Virus record (IMG/VR): IMGVR_UViG_3300021963_000196
Location: 1 to 48,819 of that record
Origin: a virus
DNA: 48,819 nucleotides
Strand: one strand, 5' to 3'
Under the pieces are notes generated by a model that made no database searches, had not been told where the DNA came from, and saw only the letters and a program-made list of their open reading frames with translations. Of the stretch, positions 9,601 to 34,423 are shown piece by piece. Each line of letters begins with the position of its first letter. The first letter of the stretch is position 1. The translations under genes were made by a program, and so were the position numbers.

Positions 9601-12120
9601 TAAAGTATTGCCACCTTCATCAGTAATTGTTTCTCCAGAAACAAAATTACCAGATAATACTCTTACAAAAATTTCATTGGAAGAGCTAAAGCTTGAATCT
9701 GCAGATCCTTCAATTACTGCATAAGCACCACTTTGAGTGCCAGTGACATATTGACCAGATGAGAATCCTGCTACAATCTTACTTTCAGTGATTAATTTAG
9801 TAAAGAAAATAGGATTGAAATATTCTAGTTTAAATACTGAATTATATGTAGAGTTTCCAGATTCATCTCTACCTTTTGATAATACTTTATCTGTATCTTG
9901 ATTAAAACCAAATCCTCTCTTTACGAGGGAGAAATTCTTTGGTTTTGCAATACCAATAACAGGAGTAATAGTTTTACTATAGTCAACTACTTCCCCAAAA
10001 GGAAGAATTCTATTTCCTTGTGAAATAGGAACAGTTAAAACAATTTGTCCGCTTGCCGCCGATAGAGGATCTTCTTGAATCTGATACTCAAAGAATCTAG
10101 CAGTAACATTTGATAATACAGTGCCAGTGGTTGTATTATATGCATCAGGAATAGCACCAGAAATCTTAATAGTATTTCCAGCAACTAAACCATGATCAGT
10201 AACAGTGGTTACTTTTGCAATATAATTGTTTATTCCATTAACTACTCTAATTTCATATTCAATCGACTCTACTTGCACTTGAGTGCCAGACTCTTGCCAG
10301 TAATAATTTTGTGCTCTAAATGCACCATCATCAATTGGACTATTAATAGACCTGTAAAATACTTGTCTTCTCTTAACATCTGTTGTTACAGAAGTATCTG
10401 ATAAAGCTGCAGGAATAAAGTCTGCATTATCATATTCTAAAAACTTATCAACTAAATCTCTCTTATTTCCTAAAATGGTTAATTCTAAATAAATTTCCCC
10501 ACCAATATCATCTACTCTAGATAATTGTGAATATGCAATAACTTCTACATAATCAACTGTAGTTGCGGCTAGTGTTTCTCCTAAATTTGCAACGTAGTAT
10601 AGTTTTTGACCAAGAATAGAACTATAGTCATTAGCTGGAGATTTTGCCTTAACGTAAATGGTCTTAACAGCATAGTCGTGAAGTAAATTAGTTTTACTTA
10701 TAGACTTAAGTGGTAAACCTCTACGTAGTGAAGTTTTGCGCGAATTATATTCTCCATTGTATCCTAAGTATCCATCATTAAATAATGAAGAGAAATACAA
10801 TGTTGGATATGAAGTTAACTCGCTACCTTCTGAGTTCAGAGGAATAGAGTTATAAACATTAGTTACATTAAAAGAAGGCAATCCATATGTTTTAATACGA
10901 TTGTTTTCTTTTTCTAGAGTATCTCTCGCTTTATCTACTTCTACATACTTAGTTTCTTTATTTACAATTTCATATCCTCTGACGTATGCTTTACCAGATC
11001 CAAGACCAGCTACTAGTTTTGCTTCTGCTTCTTCAGTTGATAAACCATTGACAGTATCATCTACTCTAAGAGGATATAAACCTTGATTCCCATTTCTCTG
11101 CCAGTATTCTCTTAAATCAATGGGGAAATTATCTACTACATAGTCACCAGATTCATCATAAGTTCTTCTTGCTAGAGTTTCTTCAATTAAATTATATTCT
11201 TTCTTAGTTACTTTTTTCTGGACTACTCCCAGCTTAATAGTAAGTAACTCAATAAAGTTATCATCAGTAACTTCATCTAAAGAATAATTTACTAAATTCA
11301 AATTAATCTGCAATCTATGCGCCCCAGGAGCACTGAAATTAGAAAACCCTCTGGCATTATCGTAGAGAGTAACATCTTTTTCTGGGGTAATTATTTCTTC
11401 TTCAATTAAGAAGCCAATTTTAGTGGATGGTTGTGAATAATACTTATCTACTATTAAAATTTGTTTCTCATTTTGCACAAAAAATCCATTGACAAAATAA
11501 ATGCCAGTTTCTACCTGTAAAGCAGAAGCAAATCCCATAGCAGGACTATCAATTCTAGTTGCTTCTAGAGTATCTGGATTAATACTAATTACGCCTGATG
11601 GCAGAGAGCTTCCATCGGTGCCAACTACTAGAATAGGACTGTTTTGAATATTTGCTTCTAACTCTTCGCCTTGTCTGAAAGTATTTTCACTGCTATCGCC
11701 ACCACTTAAGTAATTGACATAGATAATATCCGATTCAGTTTCTGAAGCATAATCTGCTTCTATAACTACTGCTTTAACACCAGAAGTAAGACCAGTTAAT
11801 GTTAATCCAATTAAATTTCTGATGTCATACTTTCTGAATAGAATTTCACCACCTACATTTTCAGCTACTTCAGAAATAGATGCCAGTTTAACATAATTTA
11901 GTCTATTGTTAAATGAAATTTCACCTGGAATTACTTGCTGACCTTGTTTAAATTGATACTTTCCAAATTGCTCAATCTGATTCTGTAAAATCGATTGTAA
12001 AGCATTTAACTCTCTAGTCTGAATAGAGTATCCAGGTCTAAAAAGCACTTTATAAAAATTTTTAGACGCTTCAAAATCGTCGTTATATTCTTTAGTGTTT
12101 AGATTAATCTTTTGTGGCAT
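3628..12120 (-). CDS. Giant DUF4815-type baseplate/tail structural protein (2830 aa)
   Basis: The N-terminus (KINLNTKEYNDDF..., then VLFRPGYSIQTRELNALQSI, residues ~24-45, and IEQFGKYQFKQGQQV) matches the DUF4815 pattern at the head of large cyanophage virion proteins. The middle and C-terminal parts are long beta-rich Ig-like/fibronectin-like stretches. Around residues 2150-2260 there is a motif block (DYPIYLLNNTDYTLCIETDS, then ...RLGENDIATSEVI, QPLLGSVFRSQN) that I associate with large cyanophage baseplate proteins. It sits directly downstream of gp8, the place of gp9/gp10 in T4, but far exceeds them in size. Probably a peripheral baseplate or fibre-network component. The DUF call is from pattern memory. 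Confidence 0.75.
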   Translation of the reverse strand: MPQKINLNTKEYNDDFEASKNFYKVLFRPGYSIQTRELNALQSILQNQIEQFGKYQFKQGQQVIPGEISFNNRLNYVKLASISEVAENVGGEILFRKYDIRNLIGLTLTGLTSGVKAVVIEADYASETESDIIYVNYLSGGDSSENTFRQGEELEANIQNSPILVVGTDGSSLPSGVISINPDTLEATRIDSPAMGFASALQVETGIYFVNGFFVQNEKQILIVDKYYSQPSTKIGFLIEEEIITPEKDVTLYDNARGFSNFSAPGAHRLQINLNLVNYSLDEVTDDNFIELLTIKLGVVQKKVTKKEYNLIEETLARRTYDESGDYVVDNFPIDLREYWQRNGNQGLYPLRVDDTVNGLSTEEAEAKLVAGLGSGKAYVRGYEIVNKETKYVEVDKARDTLEKENNRIKTYGLPSFNVTNVYNSIPLNSEGSELTSYPTLYFSSLFNDGYLGYNGEYNSRKTSLRRGLPLKSISKTNLLHDYAVKTIYVKAKSPANDYSSILGQKLYYVANLGETLAATTVDYVEVIAYSQLSRVDDIGGEIYLELTILGNKRDLVDKFLEYDNADFIPAALSDTSVTTDVKRRQVFYRSINSPIDDGAFRAQNYYWQESGTQVQVESIEYEIRVVNGINNYIAKVTTVTDHGLVAGNTIKISGAIPDAYNTTTGTVLSNVTARFFEYQIQEDPLSAASGQIVLTVPISQGNRILPFGEVVDYSKTITPVIGIAKPKNFSLVKRGFGFNQDTDKVLSKGRDESGNSTYNSVFKLEYFNPIFFTKLITESKIVAGFSSGQYVTGTQSGAYAVIEGSADSSFSSSNEIFVRVLSGNFVSGETITDEGGNTLKIAKENTISHFVVTKRGSEYTQTTTEVRTNPLSINGKLVDVSVAKPQIVAGNVISIDIKDRRNLSEEYASPPDVVVNFDSATPVSNSAVVKPVLFKDTIVNYSNENVKSIYCEFGEGGSNSFSCDVDTFNDEFTLSKNVTNFTFSGAKGRKYLTCLAFSGDASVDLLAGDVIQYVDSTGVVRRNIVEYITKPSGISRSLIYLDTALQEDVNDSVVVRKRTKIDTVSNPSLIYPVGFKSVSSLIKDSDDTNFTYYVRRDFITTSSTSGGQITFSAQLKFGTQRFIGFTESNFILTILDKGNSNTGLENGDIMFITADQVTELSSGGVSISLDNLTFRNDASSASNVVLKLTATIEITKASAKTKTAIRNKRIVVTSVGDKVIPFRGYDYDEQTADIISYSDCFGEYGTDIRVFEGSISNPPVLDDQNNVIEGFDVTERFTFDDGQRDTLYDVSRLVLKPGFDAPVGQLVIVFNFFEHSQGDFSIVDSYTLTGTPVNDIPSFNSPSLGKVSLRDVIDFRPKVDVNTIITGFQNKTILESNNTISFNGSGGIPSATPAHDSNLDYSFVFTSKQYLDRIDGVFLNSSGNFVVKNGNSSLNPSKPESPDDAIPLYYLYIPAYTNNPQDIRVTPVDNRRYTMRDIGKLEKRIERLEYYTTLSILEQQTFNTQIKDDIGLDRFKSGIVVDNFENHGVGNLTSLDYKCAIDTQQSILRPQSVENSYSLVEINNTKQERTLDGYQKTGDVITLPYTSVSAISNPYATSPINPNPFVVVQYVGDLSISPSVDHWYDTDKKPVILNNDTKVFSVFVSKSESSEGFNSLNNFYLTNWVGTNRTFYNVSSLNDITSDTNTSISSATISTSSNISPQNNEIGKGIQTVNNGNVTVATSIQLFARSRAIKFVLRRLKPDTKFYAFIDGRNVGRWVAQDTRFTGIPDNSVGVFGANEDGSAIITDANGDASGVLVFPAGFAPVQGASWSGSIDDISLDGSLELNFTTGVKTIRFTTSSEDTNDNRVDSFAESKYFCTGVFPSQPASIISTIPSFLKSAEGIQFIDNASTQARPNPLSQTFRIENYDGGVFLTGVDLFFAQKSETLPIRVYLTDTNSGTPGNHIIPGTEVVKSTDTYLRIFTNGNVVLTLDETISGASSGVRGVIKTVFDSNDNELVPTIQRTVTLANDQVYKLVISNYISQNGQEFLQNENLIIPSVVKRNALDNSNLTVTIAKDSGRISGIKIVDFGDGYESATLIIQSPQLPGGSSAIGNVLISNGEVYEANILLGGSGYTDTPSIILRPNGSISREAVLEPILQIDTPAVRMGVSVDPQDGEIADSTSPTRFTFDYPIYLLNNTDYTLCIETDSIDYRVWSSRLGENDIATSEVITQQPLLGSVFRSQNVDTWSEDLNQDIKFTLNRAVFAVNRPATVELTNEDLGYELLSANSIETDASSNDSATSPLFKNNNRIIKINHPNNGFEDSSKSYVTFKNVSGVGGIEADYFNSNLFQVSNSGVNFYNITSTFGAGSTTSGGGNGIFASYNRKYERLYPSVSYLSFTETPFNVEVRTTNIIPVDSPGENYSSYQISDYETAFLNEEQYFTNQKVIASTFNELKNNIDESLKYKFTISTTRDNLSPVIDLRSSSVKVISNIVEKGYGNETRYGRRYKVLNFYPVYKFNVTNLPTNSDGSPILPTAGQSVVGDTTKSRGEIIKVVGSLIYTKMKNSSLFAAGETLTFGIQSFSGVAVSPSGISEVEFDFTPDTNVEVYQENLSDTFANQIYAKIIRWDDKNKKLYVLEEKAPQNGNYFSAAAGPYARNSSDEGANQLPDIIRVNDNLWHQQIEPQNLTDTNESVPGFVEVSSIEYSSGVLYTSDINSKNSSSVAKYVTKEITLANPATTIEVRTTANLFEENDVEIYYKTKPVNSQSIFDDIEWIPFNGNGLPDNTVTPSNDSAISGLFERQSSYKEHKYSVSNLNEFASFAVKIVMKSSNPSYIPKIQDARIIAAF

Positions 12121-22945: not shown

Positions 22946-24775
22946 TTACTCTTGGAAAATTGTAAAAGTGCTCTTGGTGATGTCTACATCTAAAAACATT
23001 TCTCTTGTAGACACAATATCATTTACTGCGGGTTTTACGCGAATTTCAATTTTGTTATCATTGAAACTACCTTTTAGAATAATCAAGTCATACATTCTAA
23101 TTTCACCTTTTTCATAATTTACTTCTCCTAAGTTTGGACGAAGGACAATTTTATCACCTGTTATACTATCTAATTTATATAAGACAATTTTACCCTTTCT
23201 ATCTTCAATATAAACAGTATCTCTCGGGTATTCTCTTACTGTGAATCCTGTGCTATGTATTACAGGCATATCATCGACTAAAAATGGATTCTTATAGCAA
23301 ATTTCATAATAAAACTTGGAGTTGATGGCAGGATAAAAATCCTTTCTCATCATAATACTGGTTAAATTTGATTTGATTGATACATCAGAGTCATCGATGA
23401 CTCCAACAAACTTACTGTAACGATATTTTCCATTGAATTTTTCAGTATCTGATAATTTAATATAGTCTTCGACGTTTTTAATTACTAGTGACTTGATTTT
23501 ATCGGTCTTATAAGTAGTTAAAGTGCCATCATAGTAAATTTTCGATGTCATTTCGACATAAAGAATAGATGGGTCAACTATTTTAGGTGTAACTGAGGCA
23601 ACAGAATACTTTCTAAGTTTAGTTTCTAACTCTTTTTTGGTAAAAGAGGTTAAAAATGTGCTATATTTTGGTTTGATGACGATTTTTACGACTCCATACT
23701 CAGGGGGGTCGTCTTCTTCACCACCAAATGCTGTAATATCAGCAACAGCTGGATATAAGTTGCGTATAATTGCTTTATAATCCTCACCAGTAACTGCTCT
23801 ATCTTGAGTACCATAGTTTTTGGCAGCATTAAACTTGATTTTTTCGGTAGTCTCTGGCGCTTCACCTCCTGCAGAAACAGATTTTGTAGTTACACTAGCA
23901 ACATTAAAGGAATATATTGATGTTATTGTGCTAACAGTCTCTGTGTTATCAGCATCTTCTAGAATACCGCTAAATGAAAATACTCTAGCGCCATTTGTCA
24001 ATTGTGCTGGAGTAACAAGATAAGAAATCTCTACATACTCGCCATCTTCAAGTTTTCTACCAAAAACGCCATCGCCAAACTTTAACTCATAATTCTCATC
24101 CTCAATTTCCGATAAGAAGAAAATTCTATCCCCTGGTCCTACATTAAGAATATTTTCGGCGTAATCATAAATTTCAAATGCACCGCTTGGATATGCTTGC
24201 TCTGACTTGAATACTCTTACTCTAATGCTAGTATTATCAATATTGGTATTTCTAATTAAAAATCTCTGATTTTTTAGAGCAGTCTGCACAGTGATAAAAT
24301 CTGTGATAATGCTGCCACCATAAATCTCCAGATTATTAAATTCTGCTAGATTGCCGTTTACAGTTACTCTTACATCATCAAGAATACTGTATGGATAAAC
24401 AGTGCCATCTAAAAATGTCGAAAAAACAGTGCCTTTCTTTAATACTGCAGTCGTAGGCACTACATTTGACTGATACTCAATCACCATGTCAACAACCGCC
24501 TTTGATGCTGTTGCTGATTTTGGTCTATAACCAAGTTGTTTTGCAATTGCTACAACGTTATCTCTGAGTGTAGCAGAATTCAAAAACATTTCATTCACCA
24601 CCATGTTGGTGTTGAATGCGGTGTAGTAAGTATTGTATGCCAAAACATCAAGCAGTGCGCTCAAAGCACTACCTTCAAAATCATAATCAGTGAAATCAGA
24701 ATTTGCTCTTAGATATTCTTTGAGCGAAGTTTTTATATTTTCAAAGTCTAATTGGTTTAACTGCGTATATGGCAT
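22946..24775 (-). CDS. 6: Baseplate wedge subunit gp6 (609 aa)
   Basis: The N-terminus MPYTQLNQLDFENIKTSLKE, then DYDFEGSALSALLDVLAYNT (residues 34-53) and NMVVNEMFLNSATLRDNV (residues ~60-77), is the conserved gp6/baseplate-J-like region. Length is close to T4 gp6 (~660). gp6 dimers form the continuous inner ring of the T4 baseplate, with gp25 and gp53 at the wedge core. Upstream gp25 ends three bases before this ATG and gp7 begins four bases after its stop, so the three are one translational block. A middle beta domain and a C-terminal region with GKIVLYKLDSITGDKIVL are consistent with the family. Confidence 0.9.
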   Translation of the reverse strand: MPYTQLNQLDFENIKTSLKEYLRANSDFTDYDFEGSALSALLDVLAYNTYYTAFNTNMVVNEMFLNSATLRDNVVAIAKQLGYRPKSATASKAVVDMVIEYQSNVVPTTAVLKKGTVFSTFLDGTVYPYSILDDVRVTVNGNLAEFNNLEIYGGSIITDFITVQTALKNQRFLIRNTNIDNTSIRVRVFKSEQAYPSGAFEIYDYAENILNVGPGDRIFFLSEIEDENYELKFGDGVFGRKLEDGEYVEISYLVTPAQLTNGARVFSFSGILEDADNTETVSTITSIYSFNVASVTTKSVSAGGEAPETTEKIKFNAAKNYGTQDRAVTGEDYKAIIRNLYPAVADITAFGGEEDDPPEYGVVKIVIKPKYSTFLTSFTKKELETKLRKYSVASVTPKIVDPSILYVEMTSKIYYDGTLTTYKTDKIKSLVIKNVEDYIKLSDTEKFNGKYRYSKFVGVIDDSDVSIKSNLTSIMMRKDFYPAINSKFYYEICYKNPFLVDDMPVIHSTGFTVREYPRDTVYIEDRKGKIVLYKLDSITGDKIVLRPNLGEVNYEKGEIRMYDLIILKGSFNDNKIEIRVKPAVNDIVSTREMFLDVDITKSTFTIFQE

Positions 24776-24778
24776 TGC

Positions 24779-25177
24779 TTATCTCGTTCTCTGTAAGATA
24801 AATTCTGTGCTTAATGGAGCGTCTACATTCTCTCTACCGATAATTTCAAATTCAATGTAGACTTCATATCCATTTTCATCAAAATTTGGAGTAACAACAA
24901 CATCGATGAGTCTAACTCTAGGCTCATATGTTTCAATTACATCAATAATTTCAGATCTTAAACTACCAGCAGTACCAAAATCCAGCAATTCAAACAGTAA
25001 AGCAGTTACTCTACTGCCAATTCGTGAGTCAAATGGTCTTTCGCCATTCTTCGTGCGAATTAAACTTTGTAAAGCATTCTTAATGGCAGTTTCATTTTTA
25101 ACCACCACCAAATCTTTTGTATTAGGGTGTGCCCCGAAGGCAACACTTATGTCCTTAAAAATCTGAAAGGTGGGCAT
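24779..25177 (-). CDS. 25: Baseplate wedge subunit gp25 (132 aa)
   Basis: Complete GPW/gp25-like domain: GAHPNTKDLVVVKNETAIKN (residues ~16-35), then NGERPFDSRIGSRVTALLFE and the conserved ETYEPRVRLIDVVV (residues ~88-101) with the EPR triad typical of gp25 and the T6SS protein TssE. Length is the same as T4 gp25 as far as I recall. It joins tube and sheath initiation to the wedge through gp6 and gp53. It is first in the gp25-gp6-gp7 block and is preceded by a late-promoter-like GATAAATA at 25202-25209. Confidence 0.92.
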   Translation of the reverse strand: MPTFQIFKDISVAFGAHPNTKDLVVVKNETAIKNALQSLIRTKNGERPFDSRIGSRVTALLFELLDFGTAGSLRSEIIDVIETYEPRVRLIDVVVTPNFDENGYEVYIEFEIIGRENVDAPLSTEFILQRTR

Positions 25178-32350: not shown

Positions 32351-32439
32351 TTAAAATCTGTGGTTTCTGAGAATTTTAAATTTTCAAGGTTTCTGAGAAT
32401 TTGCAAATTTCAAAAATTCTCAGAAACCACAGATTTTAA
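32351..32439. repeat. Perfect 27-bp inverted repeat with an extra half copy
   Basis: Arms at 32351-32377 and 32413-32439, TTAAAATCTGTGGTTTCTGA plus GAATTTT and its exact complement, separated by 35 bases that hold a further direct copy GGTTTCTGAGAATTT (32388-32402). The right arm reaches to three bases from the stop codon of the 103-residue gene, so it may act as its terminator. The core GTRGTTTCTGAGA recurs at 33425-33541. Confidence 0.9.
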
Positions 32440-32441
32440 AT

Positions 32442-32753
32442 TTATGCAAATTTCATGCCGCTCTGAAATTCAAGAATTCCAGCAGCAGTAGAAACAAACC
32501 AATTCCAGTTTTTCTGGAAGATTCGCTCACCAGCACCATGCTCAGTCAGAATAGCATTCAGGCGGGACTTGGTAGTGTTAGACTGCCAGCCACCATCGTG
32601 CAGTTTCAACCAAGTGTCACCAATCTCAGCAATCAGATTGCCATGAAGAAATACGAAACTCACACCATCATGGTTAACAACTTTGGTGTTATCGAGTTGC
32701 CAATCCTTCTCCTTAGAGATGGCAGCATTCATGAGTCGCTCGATTTTACGCAT
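32442..32753 (-). CDS. Conserved cyanophage-type hypothetical protein (103 aa)
   Basis: MRKIERLMNAAISKEKDWQL then HDGVSFVFLHGNLIAEIGDT, a beta stretch with KLHDGGWQSNTTKSRLNAIL, and an aromatic end (FQKNWNWFVSTAAGILEFQS). I recall the same pattern (HGNxIAE, DGGWxxNTTKSRLNA, FQKxxxWFV) in many T4-like cyanophages. No enzymatic motif. The array leader 'AACAGCAAACGACCC' with -10 CATACT (32778-32783) fixes the start. Confidence 0.7.
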   Translation of the reverse strand: MRKIERLMNAAISKEKDWQLDNTKVVNHDGVSFVFLHGNLIAEIGDTWLKLHDGGWQSNTTKSRLNAILTEHGAGERIFQKNWNWFVSTAAGILEFQSGMKFA

Positions 32754-33140: not shown

Positions 33141-33224
33141 AAGTATACCCTCTAAGTATACTAAACTCAAAGGGCTTAGATATACTCTGAGTCCAATGGT
33201 TTAGTATACTTAGAGGGTATACTT
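33141..33224. repeat. Perfect 26-bp inverted repeat
   Basis: Arms 33141-33166 and 33199-33224 (AAGTATACCCTCTAAGTATA plus CTAAAC, and its exact complement), 32-base spacer. Each arm carries two GTATAC-type palindromes. Confidence 0.9.
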
Positions 33225-33280
33225 TAGAGTATATTGTATACTCTACTATAGTATATGGTATATTATAATAATATATCATA

Positions 33281-33351
33281 TAGTTTTCCACAGTTTATTA
33301 TAACTTTCCAGTTATAATAAGGGTTTTATTATATTGTCCTGTGGAAAACTA
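33281..33351. repeat. Nested palindromes with DnaA-box-like arms
   Basis: Outer arms TAGTTTTCCACAG (33281-33293) and CTGTGGAAAACTA (33339-33351). Inside is a perfect hairpin TTATTATAACT-TTCC-AGTTATAATAA (33295-33320). Each outer arm contains one TTTTCCACA. Confidence 0.9.
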
Positions 33352-33380
33352 TCATATATTTGTGGAAAACTTGTGGAAAA
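33284..33380. promoter_or_regulatory. Cluster of four DnaA-box-like sequences
   Basis: Exact TTTTCCACA at 33284-33292 (plus strand) and its complement TGTGGAAAA at 33340-33348, 33361-33369 and 33372-33380. Confidence 0.6.
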
Positions 33381-33424
33381 CTGGTCATAATTACGTTATC
33401 ATAATCATAACACACCCGAAAAAC

Positions 33425-33541
33425 CTCAGAAATCTCAGAAACTACAGAATTTGAAACTTTGAAATATCTTAATTTTTAAGATTTTCGAGTTTTTTGTGTT
33501 TTTTAAGTTTTGAAACTTCTGTAGTTTCTGAGATTTCTGAG
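33425..33541. repeat. Perfect 25-bp inverted repeat
   Basis: Arms 33425-33449 (CTCAGAAATCTCAGAAACTA plus CAGAA) and 33517-33541. The core TGTAGTTTCTGAGA is shared with the 32351-32439 repeat. Between the arms, TTTGAAACTT occurs twice as a direct repeat. Confidence 0.9.
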
Positions 33542-33743
33542 TTTTTACAGATATATCATACCCCAAAACCCAGTGTTTGTCAAGGATTTTGAGTTTTGTG
33601 AGCATTTCCGAGTCTTTCTGGGTTGGGGCTTGACATTCGATACCATACGCGCTAAGACCACAACAACTCTGAGCATTTCAGATAACAACTGAGGAATACA
33701 GAGCTCTCAACTATATTTTTTTAAACATTTAATTTATCATACT

Positions 33744-33788
33744 TTTTCCACAGGTTTTTCCACAGACTACTCTACAACCTGTGGAAAA
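33744..33788. promoter_or_regulatory. Cluster of three DnaA-box-like sequences
   Basis: Exact TTTTCCACA at 33744-33752 and 33756-33764 (plus strand) and TGTGGAAAA at 33780-33788. Confidence 0.6.
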
Positions 33789-33823: not shown

Positions 33824-34423
33824 CTATTGAAGATTGAATATATTTTTTGGAAATGGGTCATAGTATGGTGGATTAATACCTTTCTTTTTAAAATAGTCTT
33901 CTGTCCATTCTCCTTCATAGTCATCAGGAAAGAAAGCAAATGAAACACCTGCTCTTGCTGTTAATGGTAATGTATTATGATACATGCCTGCTGGTATGAA
34001 TACACAATCACCTGGATTCAACACATAGGTATATGGTTTATCATCGTAGATAGTAAATGTTGTTTTTCCTTGTTGTTGCCAATGAAAGACATCAGTTACA
34101 TCACGGTGAATACCATGTGATTTTGCTTTAGGAATAATTGACATGTATATACCACAATCGGGTCTATAACCATTATTAATTTTTTGTTGTTTAAATTCTT
34201 CTATGCCCAATGATTGATAGAGAGATTGTATTCTTTCTTTGTATTGGGGAAAATCTTCTAATTGTAGGAGCATCATGGTGTAAGTAATATCTGGTTTGAT
34301 ATTCTTTGCTCCATACTCTCTTGCGGATTGCACTTCATTTAATTCCGATAAAGTAGCGAGAATAGAGAAGATTTCATCCCAAGAGAGTAAGTTAGATGAT
34401 TGATGAAAGAATTTATGATTCAT
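33824..34423 (-). CDS. Cupin/JmjC-like Fe(II) oxygenase (199 aa)
   Basis: Residues ~88-165 form a double-stranded beta-helix core: YRPDCGIYMSIIPKAKSHGI, then His-Arg-Asp (H106, D108) as the metal HxD pair, a Pro-Gly-Asp-Cys turn (LNPGDCVFIPAGMYH) with H149 as distal ligand, and R157 in ARAGVSFAF as possible 2-oxoglutarate anchor. This arrangement fits cupin_8/JmjC-type hydroxylases. The N-terminal ~85 residues are helical. Last gene of a three-gene operon; its start overlaps the preceding gene by 11 bases. Substrate unknown: a protein, nucleotide or DNA base are all possible. Confidence 0.65.
   Translation of the reverse strand: MNHKFFHQSSNLLSWDEIFSILATLSELNEVQSAREYGAKNIKPDITYTMMLLQLEDFPQYKERIQSLYQSLGIEEFKQQKINNGYRPDCGIYMSIIPKAKSHGIHRDVTDVFHWQQQGKTTFTIYDDKPYTYVLNPGDCVFIPAGMYHNTLPLTARAGVSFAFFPDDYEGEWTEDYFKKKGINPPYYDPFPKNIFNLQ

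Follow-up and report, generated by a model that had tools for sequence, protein, structure and literature searches.

Do the T4-like cyanophages, which are among the most abundant viruses of the ocean, carry sites for the replication initiator of their hosts, and to what end? T4-type phages are the classic example of viruses that replicate without the host initiator. The question is raised by a 48,819-base IMG/VR fragment (hereafter the window) of a T4-type cyanophage whose nearest relative is Synechococcus phage S-PM2. Upstream of its baseplate wedge gene 25 (g25), the window carries a cluster of the 9-mer TTTTCCACA, the box recognized by DnaA in cyanobacteria. Such a cluster of DnaA sites at a fixed place suggests that T4-like viruses of marine cyanobacteria borrow the host initiator to start copying their DNA.

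We scanned the whole window for exact matches to TTTTCCACA and to its complement TGTGGAAAA, so that both strands were counted. Seven boxes were found, all within 33284-33788, exactly where the original prediction had placed them and nowhere else. The number expected by chance was 1.01, and no more than four sites were obtained in any of 100 dinucleotide-preserving shuffles of the window; the enrichment over shuffled sequence, which had been proposed as a check, was thus observed. The boxes are split into two arrays, B with four boxes (33284-33380) and A with three (33744-33788). The interval is AT-rich and free of genes, as had been claimed, and between 32954 and 33824 no open reading frame (ORF) reaches 60 aa. 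The first two boxes of array A, at 33744 and 33756, are separated by a 12-bp step, as in S-PM2, Sf-FR1, Syn1 and S-CAM1. The spacing of array B (0/11/32/88) is identical in L124 and L040, two contigs of T4-like cyanophages, and close variants are present in L047 and L081. In L124, the AT-rich stretch separating the last two boxes also resembles its counterpart in array B of the window.

Conservation was followed in 21 named cyanomyovirus genomes (S-PM2 and 20 others), scanned whole for TTTTCCACA. Among the 80 sites detected, 29 lay 3-10 kb upstream of g25, where 2.9 were expected, and these belonged to 11 of the 21 genomes. Array-carrying genomes typically have 2-3 boxes, often at 12-bp steps. 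S-PM2 (LN828717) has three at the equivalent place, its array at 9689-9722 lying just ahead of the genes that surround its 2OG-Fe(II) oxygenase. In S-SKS1 and S-SSM4 some boxes are replaced by the DnaA-type variant TTATCCACA. The array was the sole or largest box-like cluster in all five array-carrying complete genomes examined; the sixth complete genome examined, S-RSM4, has no box array. The original prediction had been staked on conservation in relatives, and in this comparison the cluster strongly survived, in agreement with blind scans of viral contigs.

For these scans, 2.9 million viral contigs were searched, without regard to genes, for two boxes no more than 30 bp apart in tandem or inverted orientation. 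The loci obtained are samples, in which some contigs may be related. Among the matches listed, g25 was present, besides the window, in at least 33 tandem and at least 39 inverted loci (at least 72 in total), and the boxes lay on the 5' side of g25 in 33/33 and 39/39 of those listed, at 1.9-10 kb. A reversed control 9-mer pair gave a single g25 locus among 120 matches listed. As an independent bait, contigs were scanned with a conserved 34-bp element of the same region alone (Table 1), yielding a sample that was not selected for boxes. In this sample (40 loci and reference genomes), the 150 bp adjacent to the element contained at least one box in 29 of 40 cases and at least two in 26, a flank of this length overlooking arrays slightly further off, for example in L137 and L325. 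Box density reached 11.3 per kb in these 150 bp, as compared with 0.13 per kb in the remainder of those loci, and TGTGGAAAA was found de novo as the commonest 9-mer of the element flank. Dense TTTTCCACA arrays were also noticed on two GC-rich contigs on which no T4-like g25 or gene 6 (g6) was found, L174 (7 boxes within about 110 bp, 60% GC) and L091 (6 boxes, 57% GC); these may come from other cyanophages, from plasmids, or from host origin DNA present in the viral collection.

Which protein would recognize these sites? TTTTCCACA has been both predicted and tested as the DnaA box of most cyanobacteria (PMC4674748). The identification of the 9-mer as a cyanobacterial DnaA-box form is borne out by that work and by its enrichment upstream of dnaN in the WH7803 host family (L553-L622), where 68 regions contain 38 copies for 0.86 expected (44-fold). 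The same regions contain 39 copies of TTTTCCCCA (1.8 expected), and 25 of the 68 carry CTACTACTA, a DnaA-trio-like repeat. Exact tandem box pairs were considered as a mark of the host replication origin (oriC); they occur in 21 of 121 host-family genomes, and because few of them lie at dnaN they do not by themselves mark it. On the phage side, the DnaA box-binding domain PF08299 was detected in 0 of 22 phage records by a search that was positive in 10 of 14 control genomes. No dnaA or dnaN lies beside the array, whose neighbours are phage genes. Since TTTTCCACA is the cyanobacterial DnaA box and PF08299 was not found in the phages, host DnaA is the likely binder of the phage array.

The DNA around the boxes is organized in a recurrent manner. 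Blocks related to the AT-rich block adjoining array A (AAATG..TTAAAAAA.ATAG) are found at the equivalent place in relatives, usually between the boxes and the 34-bp element. On the + strand the element itself reads TTGACA-N17-TAAGAC, and for this reason it may be a promoter that points into array A. On its far side, TTGACW-N16-18-TANNAT occurs within 400 bp in 41 of 63 loci, for 0.5 expected under mononucleotide shuffling. In the window, the RNA predicted to start from the promoter at 33583-33555 would contain a very strong hairpin (33395-33550, minus strand, z = -9.35). Repeats similar to this hairpin, AAATCTCAAAA...TTTTGAGATTT, are present 3' of the element in S-PM2, Syn1 and S-RSM4. Perfect inverted repeats had also been announced for the box interval: the repeat located there is 83% complementary, whereas perfect repeats of 26-27 bp lie just outside.

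The fixed place, the regular spacing, the AT-rich DNA, the conserved element and the early-type promoters alongside make an origin the best reading: the cluster is probably the DnaA-binding part of a T4-like cyanophage replication origin, to which host DnaA would be recruited. What the DNA shows directly is the array, its constant location, the features around it and its match to the box of host oriC; binding by DnaA, opening of the DNA, priming and firing of the origin are what we infer from these. Host DnaA, for which no gene was found in the phage records, would bind the tightly spaced TTTTCCACA boxes that lie upstream of the baseplate genes g25 and g6. Once bound, it could help to open the adjacent AT-rich DNA, stabilise an R-loop formed from the flanking host-type promoters, or both. 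The phage gp41/gp43 replisome would then take over, and later replication would be recombination-dependent.

This arrangement can be compared with known origins. In T4, oriF lies beside g25 and oriE 1.7 kb upstream of g6; the cyanophage array occupies the same neighbourhood, although at 2-10 kb from the baseplate genes and not directly adjacent to them. T4 oriE contains evenly spaced 12-nt repeats (iterons, unexplained) and an early promoter (PMC3016281), which recalls the cyanophage boxes, often set at 12-bp steps beside a predicted early-type promoter. The possibility that the oriE repeats are themselves DnaA boxes was discarded, no DnaA-box-like site being present in the T4 oriE region. T4 also differs in using several origins, and a review of its initiation makes no mention of DnaA (PMC3016281). 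The dnaN-linked oriC of cyanobacteria has the same 9-mer, also clustered. However, the host family often has TTTTCCCCA boxes and CTACTACTA DnaA-trios alongside TTTTCCACA, whereas the phage array is nearly pure TTTTCCACA, with its own 34-bp element and no dnaA or dnaN neighbour. Plasmids and certain temperate phages are known to have origins assisted by DnaA. P1 oriR, mini-F and lambda are mobile replicons that use host DnaA boxes to help open the origin, together with the host replisome and a dedicated Rep or O initiator; T4-like phages differ from them in supplying their own polymerase, helicase and primase. Among the cyanophages, Syn9 carries a box array at 52565-52597. A single theta origin has been predicted for Syn9 (Weigele 2007, as cited in PMC2984593). 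In the literature searched, which included few subscription journals, we found no report of DnaA boxes in cyanophages or of a host-DnaA array conserved among T4-type phages. If the origin reading is true, a conserved host-DnaA array at one site would tie the replication of T4-like cyanophages to the level of the host initiator, and possibly to the host cell and light cycle. The array also provides a concrete origin candidate for T4-like cyanophages, testable in cultured phages.

Several observations weigh against an origin of this kind. Relatives without boxes exist, including the WH7803 phages ACG-2014h and S-T4. S-RSM4, S-WAM2, ACG-2014h and P-SSM4 retain the 34-bp element with no boxes nearby, indicating that boxes are not an obligate part of the site. 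At its own dnaN-linked origin, WH7803 carries, immediately upstream of dnaN, no boxes other than the degenerate TTTTCCACG and TTTTCCCCA. Nor do the phage loci clearly contain the DnaA-trio motif known from host origins: 23 of 66 have CTACTA/TAGTAG at any place within the 250 bp upstream, adjacency to a box not being part of this count. A weak duplex lies beside the boxes in the window and a few relatives only, box regions not being generally the weakest DNA, and it was dropped as a general origin mark. Finally, GC skew, which had been proposed as a check, showed no switch at the array in six complete genomes, where it is dominated by one-strand coding and speaks neither for nor against an origin. 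The original prediction had left a choice between a host-dependent origin and a DnaA decoy; of the two the origin is the better supported, though GC skew did not help and several relatives with the same hosts lack the boxes.

The host range was considered as the cause of missing boxes and rejected, since phages of WH7803 are found both with boxes (S-PM2, S-CAM1) and without (ACG-2014h, S-T4); as ACG-2014h and S-PM2 both infect WH7803, the host alone is not decisive. In S-RSM4, S-WAM2 and ACG-2014h (L253, L252, L251), the AT-rich block and the element are accompanied by an inverted repeat, TTCTCAATAAG...CTATTGAGAATC, in the position of the boxes. A box is found together with a related repeat of this type in L347, L137 and L295. 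In P-SSM4 the element stands alone, and several genomes lack both element and boxes. The TTCTCAATAAG...CTATTGAGAATC repeat may be the binding site of another protein, or a hairpin. The wider proposal would be that a large share of T4-like cyanophages begin to replicate via host DnaA at a dedicated origin upstream of g25, the first round depending on the host initiator, and that the DnaA array can be exchanged in relatives for the inverted TTCTCAATAAG/CTATTGAGAATC module on the same AT-rich/34-bp core; we regard the chances for and against this proposal as evenly balanced.

Other functions were weighed against the origin. Host DnaA bound to the array might act as a transcription factor, controlling the flanking early promoters and coupling early transcription to the DnaA level. 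The sigma70-type promoters found near the element in 41 of the 63 loci would fit such a role, as would the promoter-like element aimed into the array. On the other hand, the boxes usually lie 100-250 bp from the clear promoter without overlapping it, and arrays of 3-8 close sites are more oriC-like than single regulatory boxes, so we consider this role unlikely. The array might instead be a decoy which, multiplied with phage replication, would titrate host DnaA and halt initiation on the host chromosome. Its model would be datA of E. coli, a compact DnaA-box cluster able to titrate DnaA, which is chromosomal and regulatory; datA lacks, however, the combination of early promoter and AT-rich DNA at a constant place in a phage genome. 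As the phage boxes are perfect and those of the WH7803 dnaN-linked origin degenerate, the phage sites could outcompete that origin, and the failure to find a phage-encoded DnaA in the 22 records is also in line with a decoy. Yet the arrays are small (2-8 boxes each), host replication can be stopped by other means during phage takeover, and nothing in a decoy calls for a constant position, even spacing, AT-rich DNA alongside, a 34-bp element or promoters. We therefore judge a decoy unlikely as well. Binding of the boxes by a different protein of phage or host, one whose motif resembles that of DnaA, is quite improbable: the phage 9-mer and the cyanobacterial DnaA box are identical, and the substitutions seen in phages include DnaA-type variants, even if the host-favoured TTTTCCCCA is avoided by phage boxes (1 copy versus 39) and the unrelated TTCTCAATAAG...CTATTGAGAATC repeat, in replacing the boxes in some phages, indicates that different binding proteins may serve at the site. 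A chance or low-complexity origin of the cluster, to which AT-rich DNA lends something by raising the background frequency of such words, is ruled out by the enrichment, the positional conservation and the controls.

Table 1. Features of the box region and of its gene neighbourhood, in window coordinates.
Feature	Position	Strand	Basis or remark
DnaA box, array B	33284..33292	+	exact match
DnaA box, array B	33340..33348	-	exact match
DnaA box, array B	33361..33369	-	exact match
DnaA box, array B	33372..33380	-	exact match
DnaA box TTTTCCACA, array A	33744..33752	+	exact match
DnaA box TTTTCCACA, array A	33756..33764	+	exact match
DnaA box TTTTCCACA, array A, convergent	33780..33788	-	exact match
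AT-rich block GATAAATTAAATGTTTAAAAAAATATAG adjoining array A	33711..33738	-	candidate unwinding region
Conserved non-coding 34-bp element TTGTWGTCTTAGCACGCNNCCTAWCGAWTGTCAA, read toward g25	33630..33663	-	sequence comparison with relatives
Predicted sigma70-type promoter TTGACA-N17-TATGAT, away from array A, toward g25	33555..33583	-	
Inverted repeat, 46-nt arms (33407-33452 / 33514-33559), 83% complementary	33407..33559	-	
Least stable 60-bp duplex of whole window, abuts array B	33222..33281		candidate unwinding region in this phage
Perfect inverted repeat (26 bp) next to the weak duplex and to array B	33141..33224		
Cupin/JmjC-like gene, ends just short of array A	33824..34423	-	
Gene 25, baseplate wedge	24779..25177	-	positional anchor, about 8 kb downstream of boxes
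Gene 6, baseplate wedge	22946..24775	-	

Perfect inverted repeats of 26-27 bp (32351-32439 and 33141-33224) bracket a Kyanoviridae Gp96-like gene (32442-32753). Rfam matches at the inverted repeats were to miRNA models and, their scores being far below the gathering scores, were set aside as hairpin artefacts. Between 27000 and 31000, the window contains a GC island (55-64% in a phage of about 34% GC) with many small minus-strand ORFs preceded by a common repeated leader, CTATACTAACAGAGTCAACC...ACC-ATG. Near this island, S-PM2 DNA is about 86% similar, in pieces.
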